Made by a program: the position numbers and the translations under genes
DNA from: Nocardioides sp. zg-1228
GTDB lineage: Bacteria; Actinomycetota; Actinomycetes; Propionibacteriales; Nocardioidaceae
Reading direction: 5' to 3'
DNA: 64,000 bases
Assembly (NCBI RefSeq): GCF_017086465.1
Contig: NZ_CP070961.1
Location: forward strand, 3,782,001-3,846,000
Notes under the pieces: generated by a model
Told to the model about the DNA's origin: nothing
Database searches by the model: none
What the model saw: only the letters and a program-made list of their open reading frames with translations
Shown: piece after piece, positions 2,856 to 54,296 of the stretch
Layout of the letters: each line of letters begins with the position of its first letter
Position numbering within the stretch: the stretch's first letter is position 1

Positions 2856-4328
2856 ATGGGCCGCCTCTCCGCACACGACCTGATCGACCTGGTGCTCGAC
2901 GAGGGCTCGTGGTCGTCCTGGGACACCCCGCCGACGCGCGGGCCGCTCAGCGAGGCGTACGCCGCCGAGCTCGCCGCGGCCGCGGAGAGGTCGGGCGTCG
3001 ACGAGTCCGTGCTGACCGGCGAGGCGCGGCTGCGCGGGCGCCGGATCGCCGCGCTGGTGAGCGAGTTCGGCTTCCTGGCCGGGTCGATCGGCCGGGACGC
3101 GGCCGACCGCATCGTCGCCGGCATCGAGCGCGCCACCCGCGAGGGCCTGCCCCTGGTCGCGGCCCCGGTCAGCGGCGGCACCCGGATGCAGGAGGGGACC
3201 CCGGCGTTCGTGCAGATGGTCCGGATCTCGGCGGCGATCGCCGCCCACCGCGACGCCGGGCTGCCCTACCTCGTCTACCTGCGCCACCCCACCACCGGCG
3301 GCGTGATGGCGTCGTGGGGCTCGCTCGGCCATGTCACCGTCGCGGAGCCCGGCGCCCTCGTCGGCTTCCTCGGCCCGCGGGTCTACGAGGCGCTCTACGA
3401 GCGCCCGTTCCCGGAGGGCGTGCAGACCGCGGAGAACCTCTATGCCCGCGGCATCGTCGACGCCGTCCTCCCGCCCGACGCGATCGCCGACATCCTCGAC
3501 CGCGCGCTCACGATCCTGATGGCGGCCCGCGACGGCGTCGTCACGGTGCCCGACCCCGGCCAGGACGCCGTGCCGGACGTCGACGCCTGGGACTGCGTCA
3601 CCCGGTCGCGGCGCGCCGACCGCCCCGGCGTGCGCCGGCTGCTGCGCTACGCCGCGCGCGACGTCGTACCCCTCAACGGCACCGGTCAGGGCGAGAGCGA
3701 CCCGGGGCTGCTGATCGCGCTGGCGCGCTTCGGCGAGGCGCCGTGCGTCCTCCTCGGCCAGGACCGGCGCGGTCAGACCACCGACCACCCGATGGGCCCC
3801 GAGGCGCTGCGCGAGGCCCGGCGCGGGATGCGGCTGGCCTCCGAGCTCGGGCTGCCGCTCGTCACCGTCATCGACACGCAGGGCGCCGCGCTGTCGGCCG
3901 ACGCCGAGAACGGCGGGCTGGCCGGCGAGATCGCCCGCTCGCTGGCCGATCTGGTCACCCTCGACGCGCCGACACTGTGCCTGATGCTGGGCGAGGGCAA
4001 CGGCGGCGGTGCGCTGGCACTGCTGCCCGCCGACCGCGTCGTCGCGGCGCAGCACGCGTGGCTCTCACCGCTGCCGCCCGAGGGCGCGTCGGCGATCGTG
4101 CACCGCGACCGCGACCACGCCGCCGAGATGGCCCGCGCGCAGCAGGTGCGGGCCATCGACCTGCACCGCCGGGGCGTCGTCGACCGCATCGTGGCGGAGA
4201 AGCCCGACGCGGCCGACGAGCCGGAGGAGTTCTGCCGGCGGGTCGGCGCCGTGCTCGAGCACGAGCTCGGCACGCTCCTGGCGTCCGGTCCCGGCTCGGC
4301 GGCCGACCGCGCGCGCCGCTACGTCTGA
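2856..4328 (+). CDS. Acetyl-CoA carboxylase carboxyltransferase-like protein (fused beta/alpha halves)
   Basis: A 490-residue protein with two crotonase-fold halves. The first contains GGTRMQEGTPAFVQM, like the AccD/acyl-CoA carboxylase signature. The second contains GGALALLPADRVV and SPLPPEGASAIV, like AccA. No C4 zinc finger is visible at the N-terminus, unlike bacterial AccD. The family is annotated as a carboxyltransferase that moves CO2 from carboxybiotin to acyl-CoA, but no biotin carboxylase gene is next to it, so its partner must be encoded elsewhere. It starts 30 bp after the peptidase gene and converges with the coiled-coil gene at 4338, only 9 bp away. The true acyl substrate is not predictable here. 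Confidence 0.85.
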   Translation: MGRLSAHDLIDLVLDEGSWSSWDTPPTRGPLSEAYAAELAAAAERSGVDESVLTGEARLRGRRIAALVSEFGFLAGSIGRDAADRIVAGIERATREGLPLVAAPVSGGTRMQEGTPAFVQMVRISAAIAAHRDAGLPYLVYLRHPTTGGVMASWGSLGHVTVAEPGALVGFLGPRVYEALYERPFPEGVQTAENLYARGIVDAVLPPDAIADILDRALTILMAARDGVVTVPDPGQDAVPDVDAWDCVTRSRRADRPGVRRLLRYAARDVVPLNGTGQGESDPGLLIALARFGEAPCVLLGQDRRGQTTDHPMGPEALREARRGMRLASELGLPLVTVIDTQGAALSADAENGGLAGEIARSLADLVTLDAPTLCLMLGEGNGGGALALLPADRVVAAQHAWLSPLPPEGASAIVHRDRDHAAEMARAQQVRAIDLHRRGVVDRIVAEKPDAADEPEEFCRRVGAVLEHELGTLLASGPGSAADRARRYV

Positions 4329-20916: not shown

Positions 20917-22257
20917 TCAGGCAGGCGGAGCGTCGAAGACGCGCAGCAGCCGCTCGGCCTTCCACCCCGCCTCCGCCCACTCCTCGGCGAGGTCGGACCG
21001 CACCGTGATGGCTCCCCCGGTGCCGAGCGTCCAGGTGCCGCCGCCGTCGGTCGTCAGCGACCGGATGACGACCCCGAGGTCGGCCGGGCCGTCAGCGCTG
21101 ATCCAGCCGAACGCGCCGGCGTACGCCCCGCGCGGGGTCGACTCGACCTCCTCGATCACCTGCATCGTGCGCAGCTTGGGAGCGCCCGTCATCGAGCCCG
21201 CCGGGAAGAGCGCCCGCAGCGCGGCGACCGTCGACACGTCGTCGCGCAGGCGCCCGCGGACCGTCGACACCAGCTGGTGCACCGACTCGTAGGACTCGAC
21301 CTGCATCAGCGCCGGCACCTCGACCGACCCGACCTCGCAGACCTGGGACAGGTCGTTGCGCAGCAGGTCGACGATCATCAGGTTCTCCGCGCGCGTCTTC
21401 GGGTCGCGGGCCAGCCGCTCGCGGTGGTGCTCGTCCTCCTCGGCCGTGGCGCCGCGCGGGGTGGTGCCCTTGATCGGCTTGGTCTCCAGGTGCCGGTCCG
21501 CGCCCACGAGGGCATACCTCTCCGGCGAGCTCGACAGCAGCCACGCCCGCGCGCCGGCGACGTCGTGCTGGAGGAAGCCGCTGTAGGGCGCGGGGTTGAG
21601 CCGACGCAGGCGGAGGTAGGCCGACACGGGGTCCAGGTCGGACGTGCGGGAGATCCGGTGGGTGAGGTTGACCTCGTAGGAGTTGCCCGCGTGCAGGTGC
21701 TCCTGGACCCGCGCGTACGCGTCGGCGTACGCGGTGGGTGGGGCGGGTGGGGTGGCCGGAGTGGCGGCCGGGGTCGTAGCGGCCGTCGGGCCCTGACTTG
21801 GAGGGGGAGTCTGACACTTGGAGGGGGTGGCAACCCCCTCCAGGTGTCGGAGTCCCCGCTCGAGCGGGGACTCCGACGACGACGGCCCCGGCGGCGGGTG
21901 GTCGAACACCCGGACCGAGCGGGGGCGCATCCACACGGCGTCGGGGAGCAGGGGGTCGGGGGTGGCGGGCAGGTCGGTGCGGGAGGCGTAGCCGAGGTAG
22001 CCGAACCACTGCTCGCCCGGCGCGATGCGCTCCTCGAGGACGGCGAAGACGTCGTCGCCGACGACCTCGGCGCGGCCGGCGGAGTGCAGGGTCACCTCGC
22101 GCCTGGTCGCCGACCACGAGAGCGACACGTCGTCGTCGTCGAGCCAGCCGATGATGGAGCGGTGCCCCGACCACTCGCGCGCGCCGCCGCCGTCGAGCCA
22201 GAAGCAGCGCCGGTGCGCGTCCGCGACCTCGCGGAAGAAGGCGACGGGGTCGCTCAT
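20917..22257 (-). CDS. pabB: Aminodeoxychorismate synthase component I with in-frame palindromic-element insertion
   Basis: A 446-residue chorismate-binding enzyme that converts chorismate to 4-amino-4-deoxychorismate for folate, using ammonia from PabA. The catalytic domain occupies about 175-446, with IKGTTPRGATAEED, ENLMIVDLLRNDL and PAGSMTGAPK. Residues about 128-149 (SESPLERGLRHLEGVATP and on) are encoded by a double palindromic DNA element also found near 52.7 kb, followed by a Pro/Thr/Ala linker. The insertion sits between the N-terminal domain and the catalytic domain, where it could be tolerated. ATG at 22257 overlaps the pabA stop by 4 bp. Confidence 0.92.
   Translation of the reverse strand: MSDPVAFFREVADAHRRCFWLDGGGAREWSGHRSIIGWLDDDDVSLSWSATRREVTLHSAGRAEVVGDDVFAVLEERIAPGEQWFGYLGYASRTDLPATPDPLLPDAVWMRPRSVRVFDHPPPGPSSSESPLERGLRHLEGVATPSKCQTPPPSQGPTAATTPAATPATPPAPPTAYADAYARVQEHLHAGNSYEVNLTHRISRTSDLDPVSAYLRLRRLNPAPYSGFLQHDVAGARAWLLSSSPERYALVGADRHLETKPIKGTTPRGATAEEDEHHRERLARDPKTRAENLMIVDLLRNDLSQVCEVGSVEVPALMQVESYESVHQLVSTVRGRLRDDVSTVAALRALFPAGSMTGAPKLRTMQVIEEVESTPRGAYAGAFGWISADGPADLGVVIRSLTTDGGGTWTLGTGGAITVRSDLAEEWAEAGWKAERLLRVFDAPPA
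21813..21877. repeat. Double palindromic element inside pabB
   Basis: Hairpin A has 15-bp arms at 21813-21827 and 21834-21848 with one wobble pair and loop TGGCAA. Hairpin B is a perfect 32-bp palindrome (21846-21877) centred on CTCGAG. The two share three bases. A diverged partial copy of the start of hairpin A lies just before it (21794-21808). Both strands are open in frame, and the element is translated in the pabB frame. Confidence 0.95.
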
Positions 22258-22814
22258 CGGAGGAAGTTCCGCACGATGTCCTCGCCGTGCGCCGACAGCA
22301 CCGACTCGGGGTGGAACTGCACGCCCTCCAGGGGCAGGGCCTCGTGGCGTACGCCCATCACCACGCCGTCCTCGCTCCACGCGGTCGCCACCAGCCCCTC
22401 GGGCAGCTCGACCGCCCCCAGCGAGTGGTAGCGCACCGCGGCGAAGCCCTGCGGCAGCCCGGCGAAGACGCCCACGCCGTCGTGCCGCACGGCCGCGACG
22501 TCCCCGTGCGCCGGGGCCAGCCGCCCCACCGTGCCGCCGTACGCCGTGACCAGCCCCTGCATGCCGAGGCAGACGCCGAGCACGGGGCGCGAGGCGTCAC
22601 GCAGCACCGCGGTGCCGACCGAGAAGTCGGCGCGCTGGGCTGGATGGCCCGGCCCCGGGGACAGCACGACGTGCGAGTGCCGCAGCACCTCGCCGGGCGT
22701 CACCTCGTCGTGCTGCACCACGCGCGGCAGGACGCCGCTCACCCGCGCGAGGAGGTGCACCAGGTTCCACGTGTAGGAGTCGTGGTGGTCGACCACGATC
22801 ACGTCCGGCGTCAC
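22254..22814 (-). CDS. pabA: Aminodeoxychorismate/anthranilate synthase glutamine amidotransferase subunit
   Basis: A 186-residue class I glutamine amidotransferase with the oxyanion motif SPGPGHP, nucleophile Cys in GVCLGMQGL and the His-Glu pair in VQFHPESVL. It supplies ammonia to the adjacent chorismate enzyme. The 4-bp overlap with pabB and the lack of other trp genes point to p-aminobenzoate synthesis, though such subunits may serve both pathways. Confidence 0.92.
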   Translation of the reverse strand: MTPDVIVVDHHDSYTWNLVHLLARVSGVLPRVVQHDEVTPGEVLRHSHVVLSPGPGHPAQRADFSVGTAVLRDASRPVLGVCLGMQGLVTAYGGTVGRLAPAHGDVAAVRHDGVGVFAGLPQGFAAVRYHSLGAVELPEGLVATAWSEDGVVMGVRHEALPLEGVQFHPESVLSAHGEDIVRNFLR

Positions 22815-52534: not shown

Positions 52535-52648
52535 TTTAGTGGCCGGGTCCGGCGCCCGCGCCGGGTCGCGACGTGGCGCTCCCGCTCGTCGATGGGCGGT
52601 GGGGTCGGCGGGTCAGCCGCGTTCGACCCCGACCTGTCGGCGTAGTCC

Positions 52649-52713
52649 GACACCTCGAGGGCGTTGCAACCGCCTCCAGGTGTCGGAGTCCCCGCTCGAG
52701 CGGGGACTCCGAC
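52649..52713. repeat. Second copy of the double palindromic element (intergenic)
   Basis: Hairpin A-like arms (52649 to 52684, loop TTGCAA, one bulged base) are followed by the same perfect 32-bp palindrome centred on CTCGAG (52682-52713) as in pabB. It lies in the 255-bp gap between the TetR start and the ABC permease end. Here it could serve as a terminator for the exporter operon. Confidence 0.95.
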
Positions 52714-52745: not shown

Positions 52746-54296
52746 TCAGACCGCGGCCACCGTCAGCACCACGCGCGCGCGCTCGTCGGGGGCGAGCCAC
52801 CGGCGACGGGCGCGGAGCAACCGGCGCGACGACCAGGCCAGGAACGGGAGTGCCACGGCGACCGGCAGCCAGGCGTACGGCAGCGCAGCGAGGCCGGTGA
52901 ACAGCATCGCGGTCAGCGTCGTGACCAGCGAGAGCCGGCCGGCGTACCCCGCCATCGCGGCGTGCGGGGCGGGCGTCGCCCGGGGCGAGGACAGGTCGGC
53001 GGAGTAGGGCGAGCGGATCGACCAGGTCATCACGACCGCCAGCACCTGCACGAGCACGACCAGCCAGCACGACGCGACGGCGACGCCCGTCACGAGCGGC
53101 GGCAGGCCGTTGCGGAGCAGGGCCAGCACGACGGTCACGCCCGACACCAGCACCATGCACTCGGCGACGACGACCGCGCGTACGCCGAACACGTCGGCGG
53201 CGGGCACCGGCAGCGTCTCGCGCCAGACCATGCCCTTGCCGTCGAGGCACCAGGCGTTGACGCCGAAGAGCAGCGCCGCGCCGCTCGCGCTCAGCCCGGG
53301 CAGCAGCAGCACCGTCGACCACTCGAGGCCGGCGACCAGCGCGACCAGACCGGGACCCAGGCCCAGGACCAGCAGGCCGCGCCGCATGCCGACCGAGCGC
53401 CACACCGAGCCGCGGTCGAGGCGGCGCAGCAGTGCGCGGTCCGCGGAGCCCCAGCGTGGCGCCGGAGCGGGCCGCGCCTCGTGCACGCCCGACTGCGTCC
53501 GCAGCTCCTCGCGCGGCGGCAGACCCAGCGCCCACGCCGCCGGCCGCGCCCCCAGGACCACGGTCGCCACAGCGAGGACGAGGAGCAGGAGCACGACGGT
53601 CGGCCAGCGCCCGGTCCGGGCGGCGTCGGCGACCCACGTCGTCGGCAGCGCCCGCGCCAGCGGTGCGAGGTGCCCGGCGAGGTGCAGGCCGGCGAGCATC
53701 ACGACGACCGCGCCACCGACCACCCGGACGACGACCACGCCGCGCGCGGTGCGACGTACGCCCTCGACCGCCCAGCCGACGGCCTGGCCGACTGCGGTCG
53801 CGAGGACGGCCCAGGCCAGCACGACGAGCTGGGCGCCGAGGAGGCGGCCGGGCGGCGCGACCAGCGCGGTGACCGCGAGGAGGCTCCAGACCTGCACCAG
53901 CCAGGCCAGGTTGAGCGGGGCGAGCAGCAGCGCGCCGAGGTGCTCGGTCACCGGACCTATCGGGTGGACCGCGGCCTCGCCGCGCGACAGCAGCTCGCGT
54001 CCGCCGCCGCTGCCCAACGCGGCGCCGACCGCCAGCACGAGGAAGCCGGCGAAGGCGGCACCGAGGTTGGACTCGAGGGCGGCCAGTGCCCGCTCGAGCG
54101 CGGGCGACCCCACCGCGTCGAGGTCGATCCGCGCGGGGCCGACGGCGAAGGCGAGGCTGAGCGTCAGCACGACGCCCAGGCCGAGCAGGGCGGGGCCGCG
54201 ACGGCGTACGGTCCGGGTCCGGAACGCCAGGAGGTGGCCGGTGTCGCGCGCCGCGTCGAGCCAGCCGCGCGGACCCGTGTCAGTCGAGGAGCGCAC
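52746..54296 (-). CDS. ABC-2 type transporter permease
   Basis: A 516-residue hydrophobic protein with about 12 membrane segments. It has no ATP-binding motif and a long Arg-rich cytoplasmic stretch in the middle, suggesting a fused pair of 6-helix permease halves. GTG at 54296 overlaps the ATPase stop by 17 bp, so the two are co-translated as one exporter. Substrate unknown. It lies upstream of the palindromic element. Confidence 0.8.
   Translation of the reverse strand: MRSSTDTGPRGWLDAARDTGHLLAFRTRTVRRRGPALLGLGVVLTLSLAFAVGPARIDLDAVGSPALERALAALESNLGAAFAGFLVLAVGAALGSGGGRELLSRGEAAVHPIGPVTEHLGALLLAPLNLAWLVQVWSLLAVTALVAPPGRLLGAQLVVLAWAVLATAVGQAVGWAVEGVRRTARGVVVVRVVGGAVVVMLAGLHLAGHLAPLARALPTTWVADAARTGRWPTVVLLLLVLAVATVVLGARPAAWALGLPPREELRTQSGVHEARPAPAPRWGSADRALLRRLDRGSVWRSVGMRRGLLVLGLGPGLVALVAGLEWSTVLLLPGLSASGAALLFGVNAWCLDGKGMVWRETLPVPAADVFGVRAVVVAECMVLVSGVTVVLALLRNGLPPLVTGVAVASCWLVVLVQVLAVVMTWSIRSPYSADLSSPRATPAPHAAMAGYAGRLSLVTTLTAMLFTGLAALPYAWLPVAVALPFLAWSSRRLLRARRRWLAPDERARVVLTVAAV

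Follow-up and report, generated by a model that had tools for sequence, protein, structure and literature searches.

An in-frame copy of a dispersed palindromic repeat in the PabB linker of Nocardioides sp. zg-1228

Results

Structure of the palindromic element in pabB

The window, by which we mean the whole 64,000-nucleotide stretch of DNA analysed here, carries on its minus strand a gene for aminodeoxychorismate synthase component I (pabB), the product of which matched Pfam PF00425 with an E-value of 1.2e-82 and NCBIfam TIGR00553 with an E-value of 2.3e-96 (322.8 bits, just below the cut-off of 328.4). The gene upstream of it presumably occupies the pabA position. The features of the locus, together with a second copy of the element found elsewhere in the window, are as follows (genomes and loci are denoted below by G and L numbers, repeat families by single letters).

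20917..22257, minus strand: pabB, aminodeoxychorismate synthase component I, 446 aa, the host gene (Pfam/NCBIfam)
22254..22814, minus strand: glutamine-amidotransferase-like gene upstream of pabB (open reading frame list)
21793..21877, plus strand: complete family-A palindromic element, about 85 bp long (one of 29 such copies in the genome)
21846..21877, no strand: perfect 32-bp palindrome GTCGGAGTCCCCGCTCGAGCGGGGACTCCGAC (matched exactly at 23 genomic places and with up to three mismatches at 34; control, 0)
21813..21848, plus strand: imperfect hairpin around GTGGCAAC, which is GTTGCAAC in most copies (fold and copy alignment)
21793..21812, plus strand: short outer arm GACTTGGAGGGGGAGTC, on the side opposite the palindrome (alignment of 23 gap-free copies)
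52629..52713, plus strand: second window copy of family A, intergenic (copy search)

The first-pass annotation, made from the letters alone, had described a two-hairpin element at 21813-21877 that encodes PabB residues 128-149 or thereabouts. The perfect 32-bp palindrome is present as described, but the element is larger (21793-21877), and the segment that it encodes in frame on the minus strand extends over residues 127-155 (SSESPLERGLRHLEGVATPSKCQTPPPSQ). As that annotation had proposed, this segment falls in the linker before the catalytic domain, between the N-terminal and chorismate-binding domains, and it contains no stop codon in the pabB frame; across the 29 full copies, 86 of 87 frames on the pabB-sense strand were free of stops. 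In the AlphaFold model of the window's PabB, pLDDT fell below 50 at residues 125-167 (the linker) and 355-358, and the linker carrying the element is thus predicted to be disordered. The 131-base stretch around the palindrome was better folded than every one of 200 shuffles, with z-scores of -7.8 and -5.4 on the two strands. No Rfam 15 covariance model matched at its gathering score in the 7 sources searched; the sub-threshold rows, nine for microRNA models and one for an sRNA model, lay far under their cut-offs and were taken as chance.

Distribution of family A in the window's genome

When the 4.05-Mb genome was searched with the 131-base query, 35 merged places were obtained, 29 of which are full copies. 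The 32-mer with up to three mismatches was found at 34 places (23 exact) and its reversed-pattern control at none, so the recurrence of the palindrome is not due to chance. Sorting the copies into genic and intergenic, as the first-pass annotation had advised and for which we used calls from our own codon-usage gene predictor, placed 28 of the 29 full copies between genes and a single one, that of pabB, within a gene. The intergenic copy near 52.7 kb, earlier called almost identical to that in pabB, has an identical palindrome, situated 33 bp from the stop of a minus-strand gene (52746-54296), but agrees over its full length at only 73 of 85 positions.

The palindrome side of the element faces a stop codon in 26 of the 28 intergenic copies, at a median distance of 52 bp, and the opposite side does so in 16 of 28; in spacers where only one neighbour ends, the palindrome is towards that stop in 11 of 12 cases (p = 0.006). 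At these places family A may either be a hairpin that functions at the 3' end or have targeted one. The pabB copy has the same polarity to transcription as the intergenic copies, yet it is internal to its gene. Among 23 aligned copies (six of the 29 having been excluded for small shifts), there was no target-site duplication, the mean shared flank being 3.0 as compared with 3.1 for shuffled pairs with a boundary slack of a few bases, and the tetranucleotide GTAG was at neither end.

Several variant forms were seen. A second element type combines the same 32-bp palindrome with a different neighbouring hairpin (CGTGGAGGATCCG...), at L093:2972-3055 and 4129-4212, L075:3087-3120, L073:3003-3035, and L097:3097-3131; since this type shares the palindrome only, palindrome and hairpin look like exchangeable modules. 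At seven loci (L069, L071, L076, L077, L078, L085, and L090, with L085 as an example), the palindrome end and its flank are tandemly duplicated over a short length directly past the palindrome. A composite copy at L080 (about 3028-3107), perhaps the ancestral symmetrical form, has a central hairpin with a palindrome on each end, and the pabB locus of G097 (L059) resembles it.

Family A in other Nocardioides genomes

Family-A matches were found in 31 of 196 Nocardioides genomes, with the window's genome counted. In the other genomes, the 29 best loci contain 30 places, of which four are wholly within a gene; this gene is pabB by match in G096, G046, and G142 and by context in G178 (L018). In each of seven genomes, the pabB copy was on average nearer to dispersed copies of its own genome (outside the window's genome, 3 to 5 each, picked by similarity to the window's pabB copy) than to the pabB copies of other species, with identities of 85.0 versus 79.0% in the window's genome, 83.8 versus 73.5% in G075, and 77.3 versus 76.1% in G017. 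The single closest copy was nonetheless another species' pabB copy in three of the seven (G017, G096, and G084), which fits inheritance. From these comparisons, occupancy of pabB by family A looks inherited in the window's clade, with the sequence drifting to each genome's own repeat dialect. The palindromes are kept though their letters differ, as 32 of 38 family-A linkers scored p ≤ 0.01 against shuffles.

Turnover of elements in the PabB linker

We compared 90 PabB linkers from 85 genomes; 97 genomes had a PabB match, and 12 with fragmentary or distant matches were excluded (G004, G024, G027, G031, G037, G044, G048, G049, G060, G061, G067, and G076). By eye, 56 of the 90 linkers contain an element and 34 do not, five of the latter belonging to second, more distant PabB-like genes. 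The median linker length is 105 nt with an element and 72 nt without, a gap of 33 nt rather than 85 (89 measured), and every measured length is divisible by three (n = 89). An RNA-fold z-score of -3 or below was reached by 39 of 55 linkers with an element and by 0 of 34 others, where the L110 linker had no anchor and stood outside the fold test and where the two classifications are not independent because element states were set by eye from the same sequences. A very large hairpin (-148 kcal/mol) was seen in the 171-nt linker of G063 (L058:2299-2469).

Several kinds of element were distinguished by eye. Family A is present in either orientation, alongside B (GGTTTCGAGGCTCGC type), C (GTTGGTCTCGACACGCC type), D, E, and isolated cases. 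In a PabB tree built without the linker (a quick search with SH-aLRT support only), the 12 linker states require a minimum of 30 changes and occupancy a minimum of 16, and the starred branches alone force 5 changes each for A and A-reversed and 4 each for B and C. Even sister species carry different elements, namely C in G035, A-reversed in G094, and B in G092. Judged from these sequences, different repeats occupy the PabB linker in different members of Nocardioides. The alignment suggested by the first-pass annotation for recognizing an insertion thus yielded element-free relatives, but not a clean one-off insertion, as the site turns over. The contrary outcome that it had named, one peptide at the same position in many genera, was not observed: no family-A peptide was seen in the linkers of five extra-genus loci, the three nearest (L346, L352, and L355) and two distant ones, the remaining such loci (L357, L358, L360, L362, and L363) being without an anchor.

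Four linker elements used as queries (E, B, A-reversed, and D) were dispersed in their own genomes. Family E has 14 further places and one weak in G008 and 6 in G055. Family B gave 111 matches in G092, 148 in G022, 186 in G045, and 51 in G066, figures that count matches, often on both strands, rather than copies, and none in the window's genome; it occurs in at least 62 of 196 genomes of the order and at least 6 of 29 genera, the genome count being a lower bound because four candidates were scored per genome. It also forms arrays with a spacing of about 60 bases (G045 C16:1331-2177 and C10:104033-104536; G022 C1:761584-762002). A-reversed gave 20 matches in G094, 31 in G010, 9 in G042, and 11 in G057; the pabB of G010 itself was absent among the matches listed, and in G081 the query found the pabB copy only. 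Family D gave 22 matches in G011 and 18 in G039, with 2 in each of G072 and G052 and none in G001 or G015. Because the G011 family-D query did not match the pabB hairpin of G072, the grouping of that hairpin with D is doubtful.

Family B in other enzymes

In the window's genome, pabB is the sole coding host of family A; as a general rule this fails for family B. Thirty further stretches of G092 contain 33 family-B places, of which 12 are within predicted genes, 10 overlap a gene end, and 11 are intergenic; for family E in G008 none of 14 places is in a gene and 3 overlap a gene end. The best G092 places also include pabB, a MenE-like gene, an oxidoreductase-like gene, CobI-CobJ, and one further place close to a C-terminus. 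Hosts recognized with Pfam and NCBIfam include glucose-6-phosphate dehydrogenase (G6PD), ribonucleotide reductase, a RecB-like protein, MgsA/RarA, MenD, CofGH, and a CobB/CobQ-like protein; the in-gene call for L373 is weak, and L381 lay outside the domain scan. Insertion relative to orthologues was demonstrated for G6PD only: the protein with family B has 12 residues more than its closest orthologue (G094), eight other orthologues are 10 to 18 residues shorter at the site, and family B is missing from all nine, a tenth (G081) having aligned only in part. On this sequence evidence, family B enters many enzymes of one genome (G092).

A candidate partner gene flanked by copies

Seven pairs of copies 0.9-1.4 kb apart were picked by eye among the matches listed for A, A-reversed, palindrome-only, and D queries, with array-forming B excluded. 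Six of the seven pairs, spaced at about 1.1 kb, surround an open frame that is 312-400 codons long and AbiEi-like at its N-terminus; the seventh, a D pair (L228; G011 C50:20606-21772), contains by eye an alpha/beta hydrolase-like gene. PADLOC AbiEi E-values were 5.3e-10, 2.1e-9, 1.3e-9, and 3.2e-7 for four of the six proteins and 6.6e-4 and 3.7e-4 for the two D-type ones, and Pfam AbiEi_4 scored above its cut-off for L093 only. Towards their ends the six frames share, by eye, the pattern E..D..ExDG(K/R), which resembles that of a PD-(D/E)XK nuclease; no Pfam or NCBIfam nuclease model matched. There was no meaningful sequence match in the PDB, two copper transporters (E = 0.1 and 0.16) being taken as spurious, and the L083 gene had no homologue on plasmids or viral contigs.

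Profiles made from the six flanked genes were run on all open reading frames of 80 aa or longer from 447 sequences (1.74 Mb) and gave 11 strong matches, which represent nine distinct genes: the six queries and three new ones (L248, L200, and L035). All nine adjoin an element and eight have copies on both sides, two of the three new genes among them, where six of the nine had also built the profiles that found them and 238 of the 446 loci had been chosen for their elements. The 208 loci chosen for pabB or G6PD gave no profile match, and L230 was a weak match (E = 4e-4). Family-A copies flanking the candidate gene are inverted, with palindromes outward. In the window plus 400 kb of evenly spaced stretches of its genome, there was no convincing match; a 400-kb control from G039 contained one distant homologue (L476:12375-13442, 71 bits) with no repeats in its 300-base flanks, which speaks against a strict link between gene and repeat. 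Overall, the association of this AbiEi-nuclease-like gene with the repeats is suggestive.

Discussion

We observed a repeat family, its in-frame position in pabB, orthologues without an element, and, in other species, different repeat families at this site. We consider it highly probable that the pabB stretch belongs to a palindromic repeat that is dispersed and non-autonomous, and that this copy is tolerated in frame within a disordered linker. The linker can tolerate the element for two reasons: it lacks structure, and the pabB-sense strand of the repeat is nearly free of stops. Copies would arrive by transposition-like movement, the site would be refilled since a dispensable linker tolerates a hairpin, and the linker would be trimmed after an element arrives. 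The lengths are at odds with plain insertion, in that occupied linkers are not longer by a whole element. Taken as a whole, the pattern suggests selfish DNA repeatedly landing in a protein linker.

The alternative that survives best, although we favor it clearly less, is that gene conversion from dispersed copies (concerted evolution) has rewritten an ancestral pabB element in situ, as opposed to its replacement by new insertions. Species dialects common to pabB and dispersed copies, such as the GCACG(T/A)GC centres in G089 and G075 and a GGTTTCCCC stem shared by pabB and one dispersed copy of G030, speak for such conversion, as do the near-continuous presence of family A in the window's clade and the three pabB copies best matched by another pabB copy. 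It leaves unexplained, however, how families B, C, D, and E came to replace the element, why A has the opposite polarity elsewhere, and why there are element-free linkers among element-bearing relatives. Somewhat less likely still is that selection has spread family A as a transcription terminator or another kind of 3'-end hairpin, with the pabB copy a harmless stray; the orientation and closeness of intergenic palindromes to stop codons agree with this, whereas the presence of the same hairpin within the open pabB frame does not. We think it improbable that a pabB mRNA hairpin is itself selected for function, for example in pausing translation between domains, in mRNA stability, or in attenuation, with unrelated sequences converging on it. 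Long hairpins from several families at the site and palindromes maintained despite changed letters could be read in this way, but the 34 linkers judged by eye to be element-free include none at a fold z-score of -3 or below, each of the four linker elements tested proved to be a copy of a dispersed repeat, and family A occurs in pabB in both polarities. An old conserved PabB segment is very unlikely: family-A-like linker peptides recur in the window's clade, but close relatives differ in linker sequence, length, and even repeat family, many orthologues are without the element, and the 90 linkers compared lend it no support.

For the repeat reading that we prefer, the flanked AbiEi-nuclease-like genes are the best lead on how the repeats move. 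A RAYT or other Y1 transposase (PF01797) was rejected as the mover, as none was found in 18 genomes by a search that was positive in 5 of 14 control genomes. The flanked protein may have nuclease activity and may move repeats. We put forward tentatively, as a proposal that may well be wrong, that Nocardioides harbours a previously unrecognised class of mobile element, that this AbiEi-like protein with a putative PD-(D/E)XK-type nuclease end mobilizes the palindromic repeats in trans, that the 85-bp solo copies are its non-autonomous derivatives, and that it recognizes hairpins. Hairpin recognition would explain both the bias towards gene 3' ends and the repeated hits in the pabB linker, where a hairpin is already present.

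The resemblance to Rickettsia palindromic elements (RPEs) drawn by the first-pass annotation is upheld by a dispersed palindromic repeat that lies in frame in a disordered linker. According to PMC3767692 and PMC10969869, the elements of Rickettsia and Wolbachia are likewise dispersed palindromes (about 100-150 bp) with several families per genome, are found in frame in exposed places of unrelated proteins, and can differ in group between orthologous genes near one another. The family-A element is somewhat shorter (85 bp, 29 full copies), and its host is a free-living, GC-rich actinomycetotal genus rather than a member of the Rickettsiales; the likeness drawn here is one of features. Unlike RPEs, family A is intergenic in the window's genome except in pabB, has a fixed polarity to stops, and has a possible partner gene.

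REPs and REPINs are also short palindromes mainly 3' of coding regions with some within genes, REPtrons have a protein gene flanked by repeat copies, and two Xanthomonas species have REPs at nearly the same position in recB (PMC3733652). The repeats described here differ in having no Y1/RAYT, an AbiEi-like flanked gene with a probable nuclease end, a larger unit (85 bp), and no GTAG head. The word Actinobacteria does not occur in the main text of PMC3733652, and a passage of the table of REP-scanned genomes in PMC12306157 has three Actinomycetota, none of them Nocardioides. MITEs such as the Coxiella QMITEs resemble our repeats as small non-autonomous inverted-repeat units with in-frame insertions (PMC5896051), whereas no target-site duplication was seen in 23 copies of family A and no parental transposase emerged, the flanked AbiEi-nuclease-like genes being at most candidates for an autonomous parent. 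The first-pass annotation knew of no such report for this lineage, and among the matches listed in the open-access literature there was no report describing elements of this type in Nocardioides, nor any on the flanked gene.

Translated palindromic selfish DNA, best described from the intracellular Rickettsiales, would by these results extend to a free-living, culturable soil genus. The 90 PabB homologues form a natural series in which one linker contains different repeats or none, and this series makes it testable how palindromes move and what constrains them within proteins. If the flanked nuclease-like genes do move the repeats, they would constitute a new kind of transposition partner, with the AbiEi-like protein the counterpart for these repeats of the RAYT transposases for REPs.
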